Assembly (NCBI GenBank): GCA_026225115.1
Contig: JAMFSE010000055.1
Span: 1-64,000 of the forward strand
Source: Rhodovastum atsumiense
Lineage (GTDB): Bacteria; Pseudomonadota; Alphaproteobacteria; Acetobacterales; Acetobacteraceae
Direction: 5' to 3'
Length of the DNA: 64,000 nucleotides
Below the pieces are notes generated by a model, which was not told the origin of the DNA, made no database searches, and saw only the letters and a program-made list of their open reading frames with translations. Made by a program: the position numbers and the translations under genes. Position 1 is the stretch's first letter. Every line of letters begins with the position of its first letter. Shown in pieces: positions 31,147-41,876 of this stretch.

Positions 31147-32583
31147 TTATTGCCAACCTCCGCCGAGCGCCTTGAAGACCGCGATCTGGTCCTGCACCAG
31201 TGCGGCGTCCGACTGCGCGACCGCGCCATTAGCCAACACCACGGTCGTCTCGGCGTTCAGCAGATCGAGATTGCTGATGCCGCCGGCCGAGAATTCATCC
31301 TGCGCCAACGCAAATTCATGCTGGGCTTCGGACTGCGCCGCGGCCAAAGCCGCATGGTGATCGAGCTCCGCCCGATAGGTCGCCAGCGCCTGCTCGGTTT
31401 CCTTCAATGCCTCAAGAACCACCGAATCATAGCTTGCGACAGCGGCGCGCTGGCTGGCTTTGGCCTGCGCCAGCCGCGCCAGCGGTCCCGCCATGTTCGG
31501 GAAGCTCCAGCTGATGGCCGGGCCGACGCCCCAGACCAGGCCATTATTCGAGCCCAACATGTTGATCTGGCTGGCGGCACCCCCGTAGAATCCCGTCAGC
31601 GTCACGCGCGGAAACAGATCCGCGGTCGCCACGCCGACATTGGCCAAGGCAGCCGCAAGCTTGCGGTCGGCCTCCCGGATATCGGGGCGGCGCTGCAATA
31701 ATGCCGCGCCGTCGCCGACCGGGATCAAAGCGATCAACTGCGGCGGGGTCGCGCAGTTTTCCACGGAAAACGGTGCGTTCTGCGGCGTCTCGCCCAGCAG
31801 GTCGGCCAGTTCGAAGACGGCGGCGCGGCGGGCGCCTTCGAGCGGCGGCAGCGTAGCGCGGGTTTGCGAGACCAGAACCTGCGAGCGCACTACGTCGAAT
31901 TCCGAGCCGGCGCCGGCGTCGAACTGCTGCTGGACAATCTGCTGCTGCTTGCCGACCAGATCGAGCGAGGCGTTTGCGACCGCGAGCTCTTCGCCGAGCG
32001 TGCAGACCTGGCCGTAGGCGCGAGCGGTTTCCGCCGCGATCGTCACCCGCAGATCCGCATTGGCCGCCGCTACCGCTTCGGCATTGTCGCGCGCCGCCTC
32101 GATCGTGCGCCGGACATGGCCGAACAGATCGAGCTCATAGGAAACGTCGAGTGTTGAGTCGAAAAGCCAGGTCGTCTTCGGCTTATGGCCGCCGATTTCG
32201 AGAATTTCATTGGTGACGGGATCCCGCCCATAGGTCGCGCCGAACGTGGCGTCGGTCTGCGGCAGCAAGGCGTTGCGCGCGCCTTCATATTCCGCGCGCG
32301 AGGCCGCCAGATTGTCTTCCGCCGCCTGCAGGTCGGTGTTGGCGGCGAAGGCCTGGACGATCAGCCCGTTTAGCACCGGATCATTGTAGAGGCGCCACCA
32401 ATCGTTCTGCACCGGCGCGTTGCTGGTCATGGTGGCGGATGCGGAAACGAAGGGGGCTGCGGCGCCCTTTGGCGGCGTCGGCGGCGCGTAATTCGGGCCG
32501 AGCGCACAGGAGGTCACGGCAAGCAGCGAAAGGGAGGATAGACAGTTTCTTGCGGCCATGAAACGAACCGCCCGCCGGATCAT
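31147..32583 (-). CDS. Outer-membrane efflux lipoprotein, NodT/OprM family
   Basis: 478 residues. The signal peptide ends in a lipobox (LLAVTSC, Cys about residue 27), followed by ALGPNYAPPTPP, the usual start of NodT-type proteins. Two repeats of the OEP helical domain fill the rest (LQAAEDNLAASRAEYEGARNALLPQTDA, DREADRKLAAALANVGVATADLFPRVTLTGFYG). It forms the exit duct of a three-part pump with the two genes just upstream; its ATG overlaps the permease stop by 4 bp. Confidence 0.93.
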   Translation of the reverse strand: MIRRAVRFMAARNCLSSLSLLAVTSCALGPNYAPPTPPKGAAAPFVSASATMTSNAPVQNDWWRLYNDPVLNGLIVQAFAANTDLQAAEDNLAASRAEYEGARNALLPQTDATFGATYGRDPVTNEILEIGGHKPKTTWLFDSTLDVSYELDLFGHVRRTIEAARDNAEAVAAANADLRVTIAAETARAYGQVCTLGEELAVANASLDLVGKQQQIVQQQFDAGAGSEFDVVRSQVLVSQTRATLPPLEGARRAAVFELADLLGETPQNAPFSVENCATPPQLIALIPVGDGAALLQRRPDIREADRKLAAALANVGVATADLFPRVTLTGFYGGAASQINMLGSNNGLVWGVGPAISWSFPNMAGPLARLAQAKASQRAAVASYDSVVLEALKETEQALATYRAELDHHAALAAAQSEAQHEFALAQDEFSAGGISNLDLLNAETTVVLANGAVAQSDAALVQDQIAVFKALGGGWQ

Positions 32584-34169
32584 TCGGCGTGCTCTCGATG
32601 AAAAATCGGCACGTATGAGGCGGGGGTGCGGGGCGGCGGTGGCAGGATGATGGCCAGGATCACCAGCCCGACCCCGGCAACCATCGCCACGCCGACGAAA
32701 CTATCTATCGTCGCCTGGGTGGTTGCCACCACCCGCACGACATTTCCGAGAAGTGCGGGGGCCGCCGTTATCGGATGGTCGCCGCGCGCGACGACATGGC
32801 CGTAAATCGCCAGGCGATGCTGCACATTGAGCGTGCCGCGCTGCAAATGTTGGCCAATGAGGTTGGAGGCGCGCTGCTCACGCAGCCGCGCCATGGTGGC
32901 GATGAAGGCCGTGCCGACCTCGCCGCCGAACAGCCGGGCGGTTTGCAGCATGGCGCCGAAGGTCAGGGCCTCCCGCAGGCGCAGATTTAGCACGCCGACG
33001 AAAACCATGCCTGAAAGCGCGAAACTCTGGCCTACCGCCTGCAATAATTGCGACGGCAGAAACTGATCGGAGCCCCAGCCTGGGGTGAGCGAATAGGCGA
33101 CGCTCATGCAGGCGTAGCCGACCAGACAGAGGCCGGCGCCGGCGGTGATGCGGGGGTCGAAACGCCGCAGCATCAACGCGGCGAACGGACAGATGATCAG
33201 CTGCGGCGCCGCGATCCAGATCAAGGTGTCGCCAACCTGCAAAGCGCGGAAGCCGCGGACGCCACCCAAATAATAGGGGATGAGAAATGCGGTGGAGAGG
33301 ATGGTAAGCCGCAGGATGCTGATATTTAGCAGCAGTAGAGGGATTGGCCAGCGGAATGCGGCTTTAAAATCCAGCCAGGGAAACGGGGTTGTGACCTCAT
33401 GGATGACGAAGGCCACCAGCATGATCACCCCGGCAAGCAGCAGCCCCCAGATCAGGCCGGAATTCAGCCAATCCAACCGGTTGCCCTGGTCGAGTGCGGC
33501 ATAGATCAACGCAAAGCCGATCCCGTAGCTGGCTAGACCATAGACGTCACGGTGAATGTCGTTCGGCGGCGGCTGGTGTTTAACGCCCCAGCGCAGGCAG
33601 CCATACATCCCCAAAGCCAGCGGCACGTTCTGCCAGAAGACCCAATGCCAGGAGAGATTTTCGTCATACCAGCCTTCCAGCGAGGCCGAGATATTCAGCG
33701 AGAGTTCAAGGTTGAGCGCATAGAGCGCAATGCCATAGGCCCAGAGGCGCATCGGCATCACCCGCAGAATGAAACTCAAAGTAAGCGGAATGAAGCAGCC
33801 GGAGCCGAGGCCGCTGATGAATTGCAGGACCAGGAGGGTGGACAGGTTCAACGAGAACGGGGTGATGGCTGAGCTGATGGCAAAGACCATCGCGGCGATC
33901 ATCAAAATCCGCCGCGGCCCGTAGATGCTGCCGATCCATACGGCGAAGGGCGTCACCAGCATCTGCGCCGCCGTAAAGGAGGTTGTGATCCAGGCGCCTT
34001 CGTCGAAGCCGGCATGCACGGCGCCGCGAATATCGGTAAGGCCGAAGTTAGAGAGCCTGCCGGTCAGCGTGGAGATGAAGGTGCCGAGCAACACCGCGGT
34101 CAGACCCAGCCAGGGGATCGGAGCCTCAGGCAACGCGGCGGGCGTGGCCGGCCCGGCGGCGGCACTCAC
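32580..34169 (-). CDS. emrB: Major-facilitator drug exporter, DHA2 (EmrB) family
   Basis: 529 residues with about 14 membrane helices. The N-terminal TFISTLTGRLSNFGLTDIRGAVHAGFDEGAWITTSFTAAQMLVTPFAVWIG matches the DHA2 pattern, with a long C-terminal loop before the last helix (AMVAGVGLVILAIIL). It is the proton-driven inner-membrane pump; the adaptor and outer-membrane partners are encoded on either side with 4-bp overlaps. The GTG start is fixed by that overlap. Substrates (drugs, acids or phenolics) are not evident. Confidence 0.92.
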   Translation of the reverse strand: MSAAAGPATPAALPEAPIPWLGLTAVLLGTFISTLTGRLSNFGLTDIRGAVHAGFDEGAWITTSFTAAQMLVTPFAVWIGSIYGPRRILMIAAMVFAISSAITPFSLNLSTLLVLQFISGLGSGCFIPLTLSFILRVMPMRLWAYGIALYALNLELSLNISASLEGWYDENLSWHWVFWQNVPLALGMYGCLRWGVKHQPPPNDIHRDVYGLASYGIGFALIYAALDQGNRLDWLNSGLIWGLLLAGVIMLVAFVIHEVTTPFPWLDFKAAFRWPIPLLLLNISILRLTILSTAFLIPYYLGGVRGFRALQVGDTLIWIAAPQLIICPFAALMLRRFDPRITAGAGLCLVGYACMSVAYSLTPGWGSDQFLPSQLLQAVGQSFALSGMVFVGVLNLRLREALTFGAMLQTARLFGGEVGTAFIATMARLREQRASNLIGQHLQRGTLNVQHRLAIYGHVVARGDHPITAAPALLGNVVRVVATTQATIDSFVGVAMVAGVGLVILAIILPPPPRTPASYVPIFHREHAE

Positions 34170-35260
34170 GGGCGCTGGCCGTTGGGCAGAACCGTGTCGA
34201 TCGTCGGGATGGCCGACATGCCGGGGAGCAGCCGGCCGGCCAGTCCACCCTGATCGTCAATGGCGATTTTCACGGCGATGCGCTGGACGATTTTGGTGAA
34301 ATTGCCGGTGGCGTTATCCGGCGGCAGCAAAGCGAGTTCGGAGCCCGAAGCCGGCGATATCGCCACCACATGGCCGCGCAGCCGGTGCCCGGGAAACGGA
34401 TCGACCGTGATTGTTGCGGCATCGCCGATCACCACATGGGTGAGCGAGGTTTCCTTGTAATTGGCGATCACCCAGACCAGCGGCAGCTGCGCCAGCGTGG
34501 TGACCTGCGTGCCGGCGGCGATGAACTGACCCGGCAGCACCTGCCGGATGCTGATGACGCCGTCCGTGGGTGCGGTGATCATTGTGTAGCCGAGGTCGAT
34601 TTCCGCCAGTGTCAGCGATGCATTCGCGGCAGCCAAAGCGGCCTGGGCCTGCTTCATCTGGGGGGTTAGAAGATCGATCTGCCGGGCAACGGCCTCCACC
34701 TCCGCGCGGTTCTGCGCCAGCAATGCCGCCAGCTGGGCGTGCGTGGTCTCGATCCGTTCCACTTGTTCCTGCGAGGAGGAACCGGAACTGAGCAACCGTG
34801 ATTGCCGGGCGACATCGCGGCCGCCCTGGGTGAAGTTCGCTTCTGCCGCTGCAACGACTGCCTGGGCTGCCAGCAGATTGGCCTGCAGCAATGGCCGCTG
34901 CGCCTGCACGGTTTCCACCTGCGCCTCGGCCGAGGCGACGTTGGCCTGCGCCTGGGCGACGGCGGCGCGATAATTAGCGTCGTTGATCTGGACAATCAGC
35001 TGGCCGGCGCGGACATGGGCGTAATCCTGCACCGGAACGCTTTGCACATAGCCCGCGACCTGAGCGCTGAGCGGGGTGAGATCGGTTTGCAGATAGGCGT
35101 CCTCGGTGGTCTGGTAGCGGGATTCGCCCTGCCAGCGATTCCATTGCGTGAAGCAAAAATACAGGACCAGCGCCGCCAGGACGAAACTGAGTATCCGCCA
35201 GACCAGTCCGGGTATGTGGGGAAATTTCCATCTCGGCGGCGGCTCAGCGGGTAACGCCAT
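34166..35260 (-). CDS. emrA: Membrane-fusion protein of an Emr-type exporter (HlyD family)
   Basis: 364 residues: short cytoplasmic N-terminus, one membrane helix (about 17-36, ILSFVLAALVLYFCFTQW), lipoyl-like halves (DLTPLSAQVAGYVQSVPVQDYAHVRAGQLI and TDGVISIRQVLPGQFIAAGT) separated by a long coiled coil (about 95-200). It bridges EmrB to the outer-membrane duct across the periplasm. As first gene of the emrA-emrB-nodT operon it follows a TTGACA-type promoter at 35328-35356. No local repressor gene (MarR/TetR) is present. Confidence 0.92.
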   Translation of the reverse strand: MALPAEPPPRWKFPHIPGLVWRILSFVLAALVLYFCFTQWNRWQGESRYQTTEDAYLQTDLTPLSAQVAGYVQSVPVQDYAHVRAGQLIVQINDANYRAAVAQAQANVASAEAQVETVQAQRPLLQANLLAAQAVVAAAEANFTQGGRDVARQSRLLSSGSSSQEQVERIETTHAQLAALLAQNRAEVEAVARQIDLLTPQMKQAQAALAAANASLTLAEIDLGYTMITAPTDGVISIRQVLPGQFIAAGTQVTTLAQLPLVWVIANYKETSLTHVVIGDAATITVDPFPGHRLRGHVVAISPASGSELALLPPDNATGNFTKIVQRIAVKIAIDDQGGLAGRLLPGMSAIPTIDTVLPNGQRP

Positions 35261-35997: not shown

Positions 35998-36906
35998 ATG
36001 GCGCGTTCGAAAACCCTCGCCGGCCAGGATAGAGCGGTTGCACGGCCGCGTGCAGCGCAGCTGGCGCCGCAGGACGCTGGCAAGCGGGCAACGGTTAAAG
36101 CGGCGCAACGGCTTAACCGTAGCTCGGGCATTTTGGCGGCATCGGTTTTGATGGATAGCGCGGTTGAGCATTACCGCGGCGACTTTCAGAACCGGGCGAT
36201 GATTACGCCAATTCTGACATCACTGGTCGCACTCGCCGCTAGTCTGCACGGGCATGGCGATGATGCGGCCGGCAAGCACCATGCGCGTAGTTCGATCTTT
36301 TGGTTGACCGCTGCGACTGGCCTCGCCGGGACCGGTTTTCATTTATACAATGTCACCAAAAAACCCGGCGGGTTTTGCTGGCAGAATCTGTTTTATTCGG
36401 CCCCGCTCGGCGCGCCGGCGGCGATTGGGCTGTCCGGATTATTTGGCCTGCTGGCTGAACGGGTGCGCGACACGGCGCCGGCTGAAAACCCGAGACTGCT
36501 GGGACAAAGTGCCGGCCGCATGCTGGGGCTGACCACAGCACTCAGCCTGCTTGGCACCACCGGTGAGGCCGGGCTGCTGCATTTTCGCGGCGCATTTCAA
36601 AATCCGGCAATGTTTTTGCCGGTGACGCTGCCGCCCACGGCGGCGATGCTAATGGCTAGGGCGGCTGTCGGCGACGCCCGCAAGAACCACCGGTTCACGC
36701 GGTTCTGGCTGGGGCTTACCTCCGCTATGGGCATTGCGGGCGTTGGTTTCCATATTTTCGGCGTGTCGCGCGCCATGGGCGGCTGGCGTAACTGGCGGCA
36801 GAACATGGTGGATGGACCACCGATCCCTGCCCCGCCCAGTTTTGTCGGCCTGGCACTGGCCGGCCTTGCTTCCCTCGCGCTGATGCGCGCGCACCCTGAT
36901 GATTAG
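35998..36906 (+). CDS. Membrane protein of unknown function with an internal duplication
   Basis: 302 residues: a basic, disordered-looking N-terminus (1-40) and about six to eight hydrophobic segments. Two halves repeat at a constant offset of 137 residues: HYRGDFQNRAM (58-68) against HFRGAFQNPAM (195-205); LAGTGFH (109-115) against IAGVGFH (246-252); GGF..WQN (124-130) against GGW..WRQN (261-269). His58/His195 and His115/His252 are thus conserved in both halves and could bind a cofactor such as heme. I do not recognise the family. It is 6 bp before a thiamine-diphosphate enzyme gene and heads that operon. ATG with GGAG upstream. Confidence 0.75.
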   Translation: MARSKTLAGQDRAVARPRAAQLAPQDAGKRATVKAAQRLNRSSGILAASVLMDSAVEHYRGDFQNRAMITPILTSLVALAASLHGHGDDAAGKHHARSSIFWLTAATGLAGTGFHLYNVTKKPGGFCWQNLFYSAPLGAPAAIGLSGLFGLLAERVRDTAPAENPRLLGQSAGRMLGLTTALSLLGTTGEAGLLHFRGAFQNPAMFLPVTLPPTAAMLMARAAVGDARKNHRFTRFWLGLTSAMGIAGVGFHIFGVSRAMGGWRNWRQNMVDGPPIPAPPSFVGLALAGLASLALMRAHPDD

Positions 36907-36912
36907 GAGCAG

Positions 36913-38706
36913 ATGATGGCCCAAAATGTTTCGGAATTTGTGTGGAAGCGGCTGTCGGAATGGGGATTGAGCCGGGTTTTCGGCTATCCCGGAGACGGCG
37001 TCGGCGGCCTTGATATCGCGCTCGAGAAAGCTGCTGAATATATGCATTATGTCCAGGTCCGGCACGAGGAGATGGCGGCGTTCATGGCCTCCGGCCATGC
37101 CAAGTTCACCGGCCAGCCGGGGCTTTGCTATGCGACCTCCGGCCCGGGGGCGATCCATCTTCTGACCGGGCTGTACGATGCCAAACTGGATCACACCCCG
37201 GTGGTGGCGTTGATCGGCCAGCAGGCGCGCATCTCGCTCGGCGCCAGCTATCAGCAGGAGGTGGATCTGCAAAACCTGTTCAGCGACGTCACCGAATATG
37301 TGATGACGGCGAGTGTGCCTGGACAGGTCCGGCATATGATCGACCGCGCGGTGCGCATCGCCAGTTCGAAGCGTTGCGTTACCTGCGTCATTCTGCCCAA
37401 TGATCTGCAATTGCTGCCCTATGAAGACCCGCCGAATACCCATGGCGCCACCCATACCGGCATTGGCTACGCCATGCCGGCGCTGACGCCAGACGATGCA
37501 TTATTGCAGCAGGCAGCCGATGTTTTGAACGCCGGCAAAAAGATCGGCATTCTGGTGGGCGCCGGGGCTTTGCACGCCACCGATGAGATAATGGCCACCG
37601 CCGAACGGCTGGGCGCCGGCGTTGCCAAGGCCTTGCTGGGCAAGGCGGCGGTGCCGGATGATGTGCCTTATGTCACCGGCTCGCTCGGCCTGCTCGGCAG
37701 CAAGCCCAGCTGGGATATGCTCAAGGGCTGCGATGTTTTTTTCATGATCGGTTCGGCCTTTCCCTATTCGGAATTTTTGCCGGAGCCGGGCAAGGCACGC
37801 GGCGTGCAGATCGATATCGACCCGGCGAATCTGTCGCTGCGCTACCCGATGGAAATCAACATGGTCGGCGATAGCGCCACCACCTTGCGCAAATTGCTGC
37901 CGCTGTTGCAGCAGAAGACGGATTTGAGTTGGCGCGACGAGATTGAGAATAATGTTATTAAATGGTGGGAACTGCTGGAGAAGCGCGCCATGCATCCGGC
38001 CGATCCAATCAATCCGCAGCGGGTGTTCTGGGAGTTGTCGCCGAAACTTCCCGAGAACTGCATCATGACAGGTGATTCTGGTTCCGTCGCCAATTGGTAT
38101 GCGCGGGATATAAAAATGCGGCGTGGTATGAAAGGCTCGCTGTCCGGCGGGCTTGCGTCGCTGGGTGCCGGGACACCGTATGCGATTGCCGCGAAATTTG
38201 CTTTTCCGGAGCGCACCGTCATCGCCTTCATGGGGGATGGGGCGATGCAGATGAACGGCATCAATGAGATGATCACGGTGAAGAAATACTGGCGGCAATG
38301 GTCCAGTCCGAAATTCATTGTCCTGGTGCTCAACAACCAGGATTTGAACCAGGTGACCTGGGAGGAACGGGTGCAGCTGGGCGAAGGCAAGACGGAGTCC
38401 ACGCAGGCGATTCCGGATATGCCGTATCATAAATATGCGGAACTGCTTGGCCTGAAGGGGGTCTATTGTGATGATCCCGAAAAGCTTTCCGCCGCCTGGG
38501 ACGAGGCGCTGAACGCCGACCGGCCGGTGATTTTGGAAGTGCGCACCGACCCGAACGTGCCGCCGCTGCCGCCGCATATTACGTTCAAGGATGCGAAGAA
38601 TTTTCTGTCGATGCTGCCGAAGGAGCCCGAGCTCGCCAGTGTGCTGAAAGAGAGCGCGCGCGAAATGCTGGCCGGCGTGTTGCCGGGCAAGGGCAAAACG
38701 GAGTGA
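36913..38706 (+). CDS. Thiamine-diphosphate-dependent enzyme (acetolactate synthase/pyruvate oxidase-like)
   Basis: 597 residues in three domains: Pyr domain with the catalytic Glu in RHEEMAAF (about 50-57) and ATSGPGAIHLLTGLYDAKLD; central domain (about 195-340); PP domain with the ThDP motif GDGAMQMNGINEMIT ending in NNQDLNQ (about 442-475). The family includes acetolactate synthase, pyruvate oxidase and related decarboxylases; the C-terminus gives no clear lipid-activation helix, so the reaction is open. It shares a GTGA overlap with the next gene, tying it to an FAD-dependent dehydrogenase pair and a lactonase. Confidence 0.88.
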   Translation: MMAQNVSEFVWKRLSEWGLSRVFGYPGDGVGGLDIALEKAAEYMHYVQVRHEEMAAFMASGHAKFTGQPGLCYATSGPGAIHLLTGLYDAKLDHTPVVALIGQQARISLGASYQQEVDLQNLFSDVTEYVMTASVPGQVRHMIDRAVRIASSKRCVTCVILPNDLQLLPYEDPPNTHGATHTGIGYAMPALTPDDALLQQAADVLNAGKKIGILVGAGALHATDEIMATAERLGAGVAKALLGKAAVPDDVPYVTGSLGLLGSKPSWDMLKGCDVFFMIGSAFPYSEFLPEPGKARGVQIDIDPANLSLRYPMEINMVGDSATTLRKLLPLLQQKTDLSWRDEIENNVIKWWELLEKRAMHPADPINPQRVFWELSPKLPENCIMTGDSGSVANWYARDIKMRRGMKGSLSGGLASLGAGTPYAIAAKFAFPERTVIAFMGDGAMQMNGINEMITVKKYWRQWSSPKFIVLVLNNQDLNQVTWEERVQLGEGKTESTQAIPDMPYHKYAELLGLKGVYCDDPEKLSAAWDEALNADRPVILEVRTDPNVPPLPPHITFKDAKNFLSMLPKEPELASVLKESAREMLAGVLPGKGKTE

Positions 38707-39344
38707 CCAACCGCTTTCCCGGATATGACGTGCTTTCGAAACGTGAAGGCATGTCTTGGAACGATCCGACACGCCAAGCGATCGATGAACGGATTTCGGT
38801 AAAGGACGAGCCATTATTTTTTACAATTCAGGAATATCGGATTCTGCAGGCGCTGTGCGATCGGATTTTGCCGCAGGCTGAGGGGGAGGTTAAAATTCCG
38901 CTCGCCGCGCATGTGGACCGGCATCTGCAAATCAACGGCGCCTCCGGCACACGCTATGAACCCATGCCGTATGACGGAGACGCGTGGAAAATCGGGCTGG
39001 CTGCCTTGGATGCGGAAGCGCGAGAGAACTATGGCGTTCCCTTCTATGACCTTTGGCCGGAAAATGCGGACGCGCTGCTGACCCGTTGTCAGAACGGCGA
39101 GCTTGACAACGCCGCATGGCAAAATGTGCCGCCGGCGTTGTTTTTCAAGCGGCGCATCCTCGCCGAAATTCCCTCGGCCTTTTATGCGCAGCCTGCGGGC
39201 TGGAGCGAGATAGGGTTCGGCGGGCCGGCCAGTCCGCGCGGTTATGTCCGCATGCAGGCCGACCGGCGGGATCCCTGGGAGGCGGCTGAAGCCTATCCCG
39301 GAGACGGCGGCCGGACCGCGAAGATAAATGCAAAAATTCGCTGA
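38703..39344 (+). CDS. Gluconate 2-dehydrogenase subunit 3-like protein
   Basis: 213 residues of the subunit-3 family that chaperones or anchors membrane GMC dehydrogenases. FTIQEYRILQALCDRILPQ and AHVDRHLQI are typical, as is PSAFYAQPAGWSEIGFGGPASPRGYVR near the C-terminus. Most relatives carry a Tat signal; none is visible here, so export of the complex is uncertain. The start is GTG, overlapping the previous stop by 4 bp; the end overlaps the GMC gene by 17 bp. Confidence 0.87.
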   Translation: MTNRFPGYDVLSKREGMSWNDPTRQAIDERISVKDEPLFFTIQEYRILQALCDRILPQAEGEVKIPLAAHVDRHLQINGASGTRYEPMPYDGDAWKIGLAALDAEARENYGVPFYDLWPENADALLTRCQNGELDNAAWQNVPPALFFKRRILAEIPSAFYAQPAGWSEIGFGGPASPRGYVRMQADRRDPWEAAEAYPGDGGRTAKINAKIR

Positions 39345-40998
39345 GCTGCACAACGCCGAACCGAGGGCCGCGAATGGCCGCGCGCCGGATGTGATGGTGC
39401 CAGGCGGCTGGCTGCCAATGCGCGAATACCGCCAGGATGAGGAGGTGGATTTCGTTATCATCGGCACCGGCGCCGGCGGCGGCACGCTGGCCGCAAGACT
39501 CGCGGAGCAGGGTTTTTCCGTCATAGCTTTGGAAGCCGGGTCGTATTTTCGTCCCCTGGATGATTTCGCCTCCGATGAGACCGAGCAGAACAAATTATAC
39601 TGGCTGGATCGGCGGATTTGCGAGGGCGAAAACGCACTGACCATGGGCGGCAAAAATAGCGGCAAAGCCGTTGGCGGCAGCATGGTGCATTTCGCCATGG
39701 TCTCGCTGCGGTTTCGCCCGGAATGGTTTAAAAGCCGCAGTCAGCTCGGTTATGGCGCGGACTGGCCGCTCGACTGGCAGGAGATGTGGAAATATTACGG
39801 CGAGGTCGAGCGCGATTTGAGCATTTCGGGACCGGTTACCTACCCATGGGGACCTAAACGCCCGCGCTACCCGTACCGCGCGCATGAGGTAAATGCCGCC
39901 GGCATGCTGCTGGCCAAAGGCTGCGAGGCGCTCGGCTATGATTGGACCGAGACCCCGCTTGCGACCGTCTCCGCCCCGCGCGGGAAATCGCCGCCTTGCG
40001 TCTATCGCGGATTTTGCCGGTTTGGCTGTTCGACCAACGCCAAGCAAAGCACGCTGAATACGTATTTGCCGCGGGCGCTGGCGGCCGGTGCGGAAATCCG
40101 CGATCTGGCAATGGCGGGGCGCATTGAAGTGAACGGCGGCCGGACGACCGGCAGCGGCCGGGCGACGGGTGTGCATTATCATCGTGAAAATAAGTGGCAT
40201 TTTCAGCGCGCCCGTAATGTGGTGGTCGCCGGCTATGCGATTGAGACGCCGCGGCTGTTGCTGAATTCGGCGAGTGATCAATATCCGGATGGTCTTGCCA
40301 ATTCCTCCGGCCTGGTCGGCAAGAATTTGATGACGCAAAGCAATCAGGCGGTGTTCGGCAAAATGGATGAGGAGGTGCGTTGGTATAAGGGCCCGCCTTC
40401 GCTGACCATTACGGAGCACTGGAATTACGAGGACAGAGGCAAGGATTTTTTTGGCGGCTATTGCTGGATGGCGCAGGGCCCGCTGCCGATTGAATGGGCT
40501 TCGATCCAGACCGGTGCACGCGGGCTGTGGGGTGCAAAACTGCGCGAGGAAATGACCCATTACAACCATCAGGTCGGGCTGAAAATGGTCGGTGAAATGC
40601 TGCCCGATGAGCGTAACCGGGTAACCCTCGCCGATGAGACCGATCAGTATGGATTGAAGATTGCCCGCATCAGCTATTCCTGGCTGGATAACGACCGGCG
40701 CATGGTTAATCATGCGCTGAAGCAGATGCGCATGAGCCTGGATGCGATTGGTGCCAAGGATATTTTTGAGCAGAAGGATGATACCAATCATCTGGCCGGG
40801 ACCGCCCGAATGGGTTTCGATCGTGAAACCAGTGTCGTGAATGCTGATTGCCGGAGCTGGGATATTCCGAATTTATGGGTCTGCGACGGCTCCGTGTTTC
40901 CCACCACCGGCGGCGTCAATCCTTCGCTCACCATTCAGGCGATCGCGCTTCGGACCGCCGACCGGATCAAAATGCTGGCGGCGCGGGGGGAGCTATGA
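39328..40998 (+). CDS. GMC-family FAD oxidoreductase
   Basis: 556 residues. The FAD fold VDFVIIGTGAGGGTLAARLAEQGFSVIALEAG begins at about 38. A cysteine-bearing insert CVYRGFCRFGCSTNAKQS resembles that of gluconate/sorbitol dehydrogenases. The catalytic His is in NHLAGTARMG (about 489) and the Asn in GGVNPSLT (about 531). It likely oxidises a sugar or polyol with subunit 3. The cytochrome c subunit normal for gluconate 2-dehydrogenase is missing from the operon, so the electron acceptor is unclear. Confidence 0.9.
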   Translation: MQKFAELHNAEPRAANGRAPDVMVPGGWLPMREYRQDEEVDFVIIGTGAGGGTLAARLAEQGFSVIALEAGSYFRPLDDFASDETEQNKLYWLDRRICEGENALTMGGKNSGKAVGGSMVHFAMVSLRFRPEWFKSRSQLGYGADWPLDWQEMWKYYGEVERDLSISGPVTYPWGPKRPRYPYRAHEVNAAGMLLAKGCEALGYDWTETPLATVSAPRGKSPPCVYRGFCRFGCSTNAKQSTLNTYLPRALAAGAEIRDLAMAGRIEVNGGRTTGSGRATGVHYHRENKWHFQRARNVVVAGYAIETPRLLLNSASDQYPDGLANSSGLVGKNLMTQSNQAVFGKMDEEVRWYKGPPSLTITEHWNYEDRGKDFFGGYCWMAQGPLPIEWASIQTGARGLWGAKLREEMTHYNHQVGLKMVGEMLPDERNRVTLADETDQYGLKIARISYSWLDNDRRMVNHALKQMRMSLDAIGAKDIFEQKDDTNHLAGTARMGFDRETSVVNADCRSWDIPNLWVCDGSVFPTTGGVNPSLTIQAIALRTADRIKMLAARGEL

Positions 40999-41876
40999 AT
41001 ATCGAACTGGTACTGGACGCAAAGGCCATCATTGGGGAATCGCCGCTCTGGGTGCCGCCTGAAAATTCTTTGTACTGGGCAGACATCAAGGCGCCGGCGC
41101 TGCATCGGCTGAACCTTGCCAATGGCGAGCAGAAGCATTGGCCGCTGACGGCGGATATCGGCGGGTTCGCGCTGGATGGCCATGGCCGCGCGATGGTTGC
41201 GTTGCGCAATGGGCTGTATTGGCTGGATCTCGTCTCGAACGATCTCACGCTGCTGGCGCCCGCACCTTTCGACCCGAAACTGATTCGGTTTAATGAGACT
41301 GCCTGCGACAGCACCGGCCGCTTCTGGATTGGGGTGATGACGGACCCGGCCCCCGGCGTGCAGACCAATGCCGAGGCCATGTTGTACAGCTTCAGTGAGA
41401 TGGAAGGCCTGGTGGCGCACAGGGATTTCACCTATCTAACCAATGGCATGGCGTTCAACGCCGCGGAGACGGAATTCTATCTCTCACATAGCCACGCGCG
41501 CAAGATCTACAAATTCGTCTATGACAAATCCGCCGGAAAAATCGGCGCGCGGCGGGAGTTCGCCGCGCTCGGCAAGGATACCCCCGGTATTCCGGACGGT
41601 GCTGCCTTGGATGCGGCGGAAAACTACTGGTGCGCCATTCATGGCGGCGGCCGTCTGCACCGCTACACGCCGGGCGGCACACTTGCCGAGGAGATTTTTC
41701 TGCCGGTGAGCCAGCCGACCATGTGCTGCTTTGCCGGGACAAATCTCGACGAGCTTTACATTACAAGCGCCCGGGAAAAACTCAGCCCTGAAGATCTCGC
41801 GCGGGAACCCTATGCCGGCGGTCTCTTCCGTATCAGGCCCGGCGTTGCCGGGCAGCCTAAAAATTGGCGGGTCTGA
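40995..41876 (+). CDS. SMP-30/gluconolactonase family lactonase
   Basis: 293 residues from the ATG that overlaps the GMC stop (ATGA). A six-bladed propeller with metal ligands: Glu in IIGESPLW (about 14), Asn in RFNETACDSTGRFWIG, Asn in TYLTNGMAF and Asp in GIPDGAALDAAENYWCAIHGGGRL. These enzymes hydrolyse sugar lactones. Position directly after a GMC dehydrogenase fits a two-step route: sugar to lactone, lactone to acid. Sugar unknown. Confidence 0.9.
   Translation: MNIELVLDAKAIIGESPLWVPPENSLYWADIKAPALHRLNLANGEQKHWPLTADIGGFALDGHGRAMVALRNGLYWLDLVSNDLTLLAPAPFDPKLIRFNETACDSTGRFWIGVMTDPAPGVQTNAEAMLYSFSEMEGLVAHRDFTYLTNGMAFNAAETEFYLSHSHARKIYKFVYDKSAGKIGARREFAALGKDTPGIPDGAALDAAENYWCAIHGGGRLHRYTPGGTLAEEIFLPVSQPTMCCFAGTNLDELYITSAREKLSPEDLAREPYAGGLFRIRPGVAGQPKNWRV

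Follow-up and report, generated by a model that had tools for sequence, protein, structure and literature searches.

The window analysed here is a stretch of 64,000 nucleotides from Rhodovastum atsumiense (contig JAMFSE010000055.1, positions 1 to 64,000). It carries an operon in which genes for a membrane protein, a ThDP-dependent enzyme, a Gluconate_2-dh3 subunit, a GMC dehydrogenase and a lactonase follow one another in this order, the neighbours overlapping or leaving a few bases between them (Table 1). A preliminary description had placed the membrane gene at the head of an operon whose dehydrogenase lacks its normal cytochrome. Our analysis confirmed this: the gene is the first of the operon, and the locus belongs to a class without Tat signal or linked cytochrome c. 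Divergent genes for an MFS exporter and a HlyD-type membrane fusion protein lie upstream of the operon, and a HlyD/TolC pair is found upstream in Granulicella (L116) too.

Table 1. Coordinates of the features discussed; positions without a locus (L) or genome (G) label are those of the window.
Feature	Coordinates	Strand	Basis and remarks
MFS exporter and HlyD-type membrane fusion protein	32580..35260	-	EmrAB-like
Membrane-protein gene	35998..36906	+	302 aa; 8 predicted TM helices, two pseudo-repeats of 4
Repeat 1 (residues 33-163)	36094..36486	+	hhalign and BLASTP versus repeat 2; repeat profile E 3.7e-45
Asp53 to His58, acid-x4-His, repeat 1	36154..36171	+	Asp53 77/78, Glu57 78/78, His58 78/78
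His115, TM3	36340..36342	+	78/78
Repeat 2 (residues 166-302)	36493..36903	+	hhalign and BLASTP; repeat profile E 5.6e-52; modelled alone, pLDDT 91.5
Glu190 to His195, acid-x4-His, repeat 2	36565..36582	+	both residues 78/78
His252, TM7	36751..36753	+	78/78
ThDP-dependent enzyme, NF006129/PRK08273 family (pyruvate oxidase-like)	36913..38706	+	family match; in 68/80 loci
Gluconate_2-dh3 (gamma/'hitchhiker') subunit	38703..39344	+	PF13618 E 1e-21; no Tat/Sec signal (N-termini)
GMC dehydrogenase (alpha subunit)	39328..40998	+	homologue of 8hdd/6a2u glucose dehydrogenase and 7w2j fructose dehydrogenase
Cys224, Cys230, Cys234 of the GMC subunit	39997..40029	+	align with B. cepacia GDH Cys212/218/222, 3Fe-4S ligands
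SMP-30/gluconolactonase-type lactonase	40995..41876	+	PF08450 E 2e-66; start codon overlaps the GMC stop
Broken-looking membrane genes	G126:C1:775820-776644; G159:C13:52012-52749		same-family genomes
VKOR-like gene	L118 4544-4942; L120 4553-4942		VKOR E 4e-5 (D7000 copy), below the curated cut-off
Gluconate_2-dh3/GMC fusion	L118 5389-7986		865 aa; Deinococcus sp. D7000
Gene annotated as sensory rhodopsin transducer	L119 4160-4537; L118 8049-8435; L120 8100-8486		adjoins the operon
cyoABCD-like (bo3-like) quinol oxidase cluster	L040 13650-17604		Acidisoma; after the GMC gene

Homologues showed that the open reading frame of the membrane protein is real and conserved. The 3.67-Mb draft genome holds a single copy of the gene, and no additional copies of the repeat were found elsewhere in it with the repeat profile. 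The protein from the window matched nothing in Pfam or NCBIfam, none of 78 family members reached a curated cut-off of Pfam (best E 0.0099), and PDB sequence searches with the protein and its alignment gave no match. No sequence kinship to cytochrome b or quinone-site families was found in these three collections. Public records label the protein 'hypothetical protein', and no account of the gene was found in the searched literature.

The membrane protein is built of two similar halves. In a self-comparison scan, the offset of 137 gave 35 ungapped identities, the highest value among all offsets from 60 to 229, while 300 shuffles reached at most 34 at any offset. BLASTP aligned the N half with the C half (E 7.6e-16, 35% identity over 115 aa), and hhalign aligned the profiles of the two halves with a probability of 99% (E 7e-18). 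The two-half architecture with an offset of 137 residues, first read from the letters alone, is thus borne out, also by the separate half profiles that had been proposed as a check. The further claim, that three motifs recur exactly 137 residues later without gaps, was right in part. By residue count the spacing is exactly 137 for HYRGDFQNRAM/HFRGAFQNPAM, for AGTGFH/AGVGFH and for Gly124/Gly261, but in the tail of the third motif it is 138 (Trp128/Trp266) and 139 (Asn130/Asn269), because repeat 2 has a small insertion that appears as a gap in the hhalign alignment.

AlphaFold2, with a 78-sequence alignment as input, modelled the protein with a pLDDT of 90 and a pTM of 0.87. The helices of the model (residues 24-59, 66-86, 95-121, 138-157, 172-196, 203-224, 232-259 and 281-298) were taken as eight TM helices, and two short helices were seen at 128-134 and 263-272. 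The C half modelled alone formed the same up-down four-helix bundle. The paired histidines had been described as sitting at the ends of membrane helices. In the AlphaFold model this applies to His58 and His195, which occupy the last turn of TM1 and TM5, but not to His115 and His252, which lie 6-7 residues ahead of the ends of TM3 and TM7. TM1 and TM3 are parallel in such a bundle; counted from the helix starts, residue 115 is at about the level of residues 58-66, and residue 252-253 at about that of 195-203. A helix-facing calculation oriented His115 and His252 to the conserved face of TM3 and TM7 (16 and 10 degrees off). His58 and His195, at their helix-end positions, were 61 and 119 degrees off and do not clearly point towards the bundle interior.

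The two faces of the protein differ in their content of lysine and arginine (15.2 versus 7.5 K+R per sequence, and 12.2 versus 4.5 in the variable columns alone). From this distribution the histidine face was placed outside, and all four histidines are predicted to lie on the extracytoplasmic (periplasmic) side. With Foldseek, neither the full model nor the half had a match under E 0.001. VIA-align likenesses of the full model to 3d19, GGCX, VKOR and p22phox were rejected, since VIA-align states scores of this level for unrelated helical bundles. Those of the half to copper storage proteins and de novo heme bundles were at the same level, and no kinship was inferred.

Whether the histidines are conserved in homologues had been fixed beforehand as a critical test. 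His58, His115, His195 and His252 are all invariant, both in 28/28 same-family homologues and in 78/78 wider homologues from alpha-, beta- and gammaproteobacteria. Glu57, Glu190 and Arg197 are also unchanged in all 78, and near-invariant Arg/Pro/Gly loops accompany the invariant histidines and acids in both copies. Every repeat has its own [DE]-x4-H ... H set (Asp53/Glu190, His58/His195 and His115/His252). Two histidines of the cytoplasmic side, His84 (74/78) and His94 (70/78), are not invariant, so no second, membrane-bridging cofactor is evident.

Association with GMC dehydrogenases had been fixed as the other critical test. Across many genera, 77/80 loci have Gluconate_2-dh3 linked to the membrane gene and 74/80 have GMC; the exceptions are contig edges, save one locus (L063) with the membrane gene alone. 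A GMC orthologue occurs in 28/200 family genomes, all 28 of which have the membrane gene, and except at contig ends no intact membrane gene was seen without a GMC orthologue among these 200. The linkage extends to Acidobacteriota, Deinococcota and Actinomycetota. Two same-family genomes carry a membrane gene that seems broken, with an internal stop and fragments in different frames.

Gluconate_2-dh3 directly follows the membrane gene in most loci; the two are separated by the ThDP gene in the window and its closest relatives. The ThDP enzyme (NF006129) is found within 10 kb of the membrane gene in 68/80 loci, with an enolase-superfamily dehydratase between the two in many, and an aldose epimerase is also among the operon neighbours. 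The lactonase, the dehydratase and the epimerase suggest that the substrate is a sugar or sugar acid. The GMC gene of Acidisoma is followed by a cyoABCD-like quinol oxidase cluster, recognised by reading of its sequence rather than by family search, and related heme-copper oxidase genes lie nearby in further loci.

The enzyme that accompanies the membrane protein has well-studied relatives. In the FAD-GDH of B. cepacia, electrons pass from FAD through a 3Fe-4S cluster (Cys212, Cys218 and Cys222) to a triheme cytochrome c subunit, and the Tat signal is borne by the gamma subunit (PMC6719666, PMC9727119). The 3Fe-4S cluster and the heme of the partner subunit are 7-8 A apart (PMC9727119). The GMC protein of the window aligns with PDB 8hdd at E 2e-45. 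The three cysteines of its C-x5-C-x3-C triad are present in 75, 74 and 73 of 75 sequences, and from these kept ligands a 3Fe-4S cluster is predicted for the GMC proteins of the window class.

Sixty family genomes yielded 45 Gluconate_2-dh3 loci above the cut-off, and all of these were sorted by their partner genes. In 22 of them, the N-terminus of the subunit is Tat-type and about 2 kb downstream lies a gene for cytochrome c, triheme in 21 loci and monoheme in L177. Another 12 form the class of the window, with neither Tat signal nor cytochrome c; 5 of these 12 were assigned from search coordinates and N-terminus data rather than from renewed locus sequence. The membrane gene is linked in 11 of the 12, and in the remaining genome (G041) it is on another contig. 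The other 11 loci form a third clade with neither partner gene. No locus of the 45 combines a cytochrome c gene with the membrane gene. The gamma subunit of the window class starts with RxPGYDVLxKRxxxSWN, without twin-arginine or hydrophobic signal, and no linked CxxCH cytochrome was found in this class. CxxCH motifs in the vicinity were considered as the missing cytochrome and dismissed, as they are scattered and none adjoins the operon. Each class groups together in the GMC tree, and the two classes without Tat signal are neighbours; this tree is midpoint-rooted, and the support printed for the window-class node (0.17) is unreliable after rooting.

The third clade (L179-L189) consists of cytoplasmic Gluconate_2-dh3/GMC pairs with a four-cysteine cluster, CxxCGxCHxGC. 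The CxxCH in these GMC proteins is part of this cluster and was discarded as a heme motif. No cytochrome c or membrane partner gene was found within about 4.5 kb of these pairs, which indicates that such enzymes can work without a membrane partner.

More distant relatives were found beyond the proteobacteria. Plasmid-borne relatives in Granulicella (Acidobacteriota) and Deinococcus peraridilitoris retain all four histidines; a match in Embleya was set aside, being fragmentary and without a readable operon. Proteins of 154-157 residues with only one repeat occur in Deinococcus sp. D7000, Deinococcus AJ005 and Frondihabitans (Actinomycetota). They contain the acid at -5, the His, a Gly-rich stretch followed by a second His, and GPPxxAP, and both half profiles recognise those of Deinococcus (E about 1e-22 for D7000). 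Since such single-repeat relatives exist, the tandem form most likely arose by duplication and fusion of a unit like the Deinococcus/Frondihabitans type. In Deinococcus sp. D7000, Gluconate_2-dh3 and GMC are fused in a single protein, which supports that the two act as one complex. In two Deinococcus plasmids, the gene immediately before the single-unit gene encodes a VKOR-like protein of 129-132 aa with a CxxC motif; this other membrane redox protein might be a partner. A gene annotated as sensory rhodopsin transducer adjoins the operon in Nitrobacter and Deinococcus plasmids.

Taken together, our results suggest that the membrane protein is probably the anchor and electron-exit subunit of the GMC/Gluconate_2-dh3 dehydrogenase, where it would replace cytochrome c. 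The dehydrogenase would be a cytoplasm-facing FAD/3Fe-4S enzyme formed by the GMC and Gluconate_2-dh3 subunits. The membrane protein would form a complex with it, tether it to the membrane and take up its electrons, passing them on to the respiratory chain, presumably to quinone. This role would parallel that of the triheme cytochrome c in the related periplasmic complexes. The reading is supported by the strict linkage, the absence of Tat signal and cytochrome c, the kept Fe-S cysteines and the partition of the loci, and the quinol oxidase cluster of Acidisoma was counted in its favour. Within it, a putative bis-His heme b in each four-helix unit and a heme-free quinone site appear about equally probable; the heme b idea draws on the model, which would put the histidines of TM1 and TM3 level with each other in the membrane.

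The position of the histidines is the main difficulty. If they are outside, and given that the dehydrogenase lacks an export signal, it is not obvious how electrons could pass directly from the Fe-S cluster to the histidines, and the distance of the histidines from the cytoplasmic cluster was counted against a simple heme relay. Either the predicted topology is wrong, or there is an unrecognised path for electrons or quinone, or the protein has another role at the outer face. The proposal of the preliminary description, that the membrane protein might stand in for the missing cytochrome as electron acceptor, gained support from the partition of the loci, but the predicted periplasmic position of the histidines and the partnerless sister clade speak against it.

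The same two points favour a more modest function, in which the protein only anchors or assembles the Gluconate_2-dh3/GMC enzyme and electrons leave otherwise, from the 3Fe-4S cluster directly to quinone or to a soluble acceptor. We consider this unlikely. A mere anchor would have no use for four invariant histidines together with invariant acids and near-invariant Arg/Pro/Gly loops on the side facing away from the enzyme, and these residues are repeated in both copies and kept by the single-repeat relatives. Still less probable is that the protein moves the dehydrogenase's substrate or product across the membrane, as a transporter or channel. Repeated helix sets are common in transporters, conserved polar residues lie close to one membrane face and the gene sits within a sugar-oxidation operon, but there is no likeness to a transporter family by sequence (Pfam, NCBIfam, PDB), and a protein that pairs with one enzyme clade and never co-occurs with the cytochrome c subunit is better explained as a subunit. 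It is similarly improbable that the acid/His/His sets of the two repeats, one acid and two histidines in each, form a putative di-iron or copper site reacting with oxygen or quinone instead of binding heme: in structural comparisons of the whole model, the soluble two-bundle metalloprotein 3d19 scored highest (Z 11.2, rmsd 4.7 A, 240 aligned), but this Z falls in the range that VIA-align states for unrelated helical bundles.

Beyond the reading as anchor and electron-exit subunit, we tentatively propose that the protein represents an undescribed membrane redox family. Its four-helix acid-x4-His...His unit may bind heme b or quinone and carry electrons from a cytoplasmic GMC/3Fe-4S dehydrogenase to the respiratory chain without cytochrome c. 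The family would span the single unit of Deinococcus and an actinomycete and the fused tandem duplicate of proteobacteria. Single-unit and fused forms stand beside the same enzyme, so that both the duplication origin and the function of the four histidines can be tested directly.

Membrane subunits with conserved histidines that sit beside a peripheral Fe-S dehydrogenase are known in the NarI, FdnI and SdhC/D types. The membrane protein of the window is likened to these cytochrome b subunits in role, by analogy only; unlike them, it has its invariant histidines on one face only, and no sequence match connects it with them. The stand-alone cytoplasmic Gluconate_2-dh3/GMC pairs resemble the window system in having a cysteine cluster but no Tat signal or cytochrome c. 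They differ in their four cysteines, against three, and in the absence of a neighbouring gene for a membrane partner.

The importance of three-subunit FAD dehydrogenase complexes lies both in acetic acid bacteria and in their use as enzymes of glucose sensors; the exit for their electrons is regarded as a triheme cytochrome c. In a whole clade, which has relatives in four phyla, this triheme subunit appears to have been swapped for an unannotated, duplicated membrane protein, and the clade appears to work on the cytoplasmic side. As judged by sequence comparison, the enzyme part is already known in kind, and the membrane part is without an entry in Pfam, NCBIfam or PDB. The system stands apart from the classical triheme type in two defining features, the Tat signal and the triheme cytochrome c. 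With the triheme FAD complexes (B. cepacia FAD-GDH, fructose dehydrogenase, gluconate 2-dehydrogenase and sorbitol dehydrogenase) it shares a GMC alpha subunit with Fe-S-ligand cysteines and a Gluconate_2-dh3 gamma subunit; unlike them, it has a gamma subunit without Tat signal and, with no cytochrome c gene, a linked 8-TM protein.
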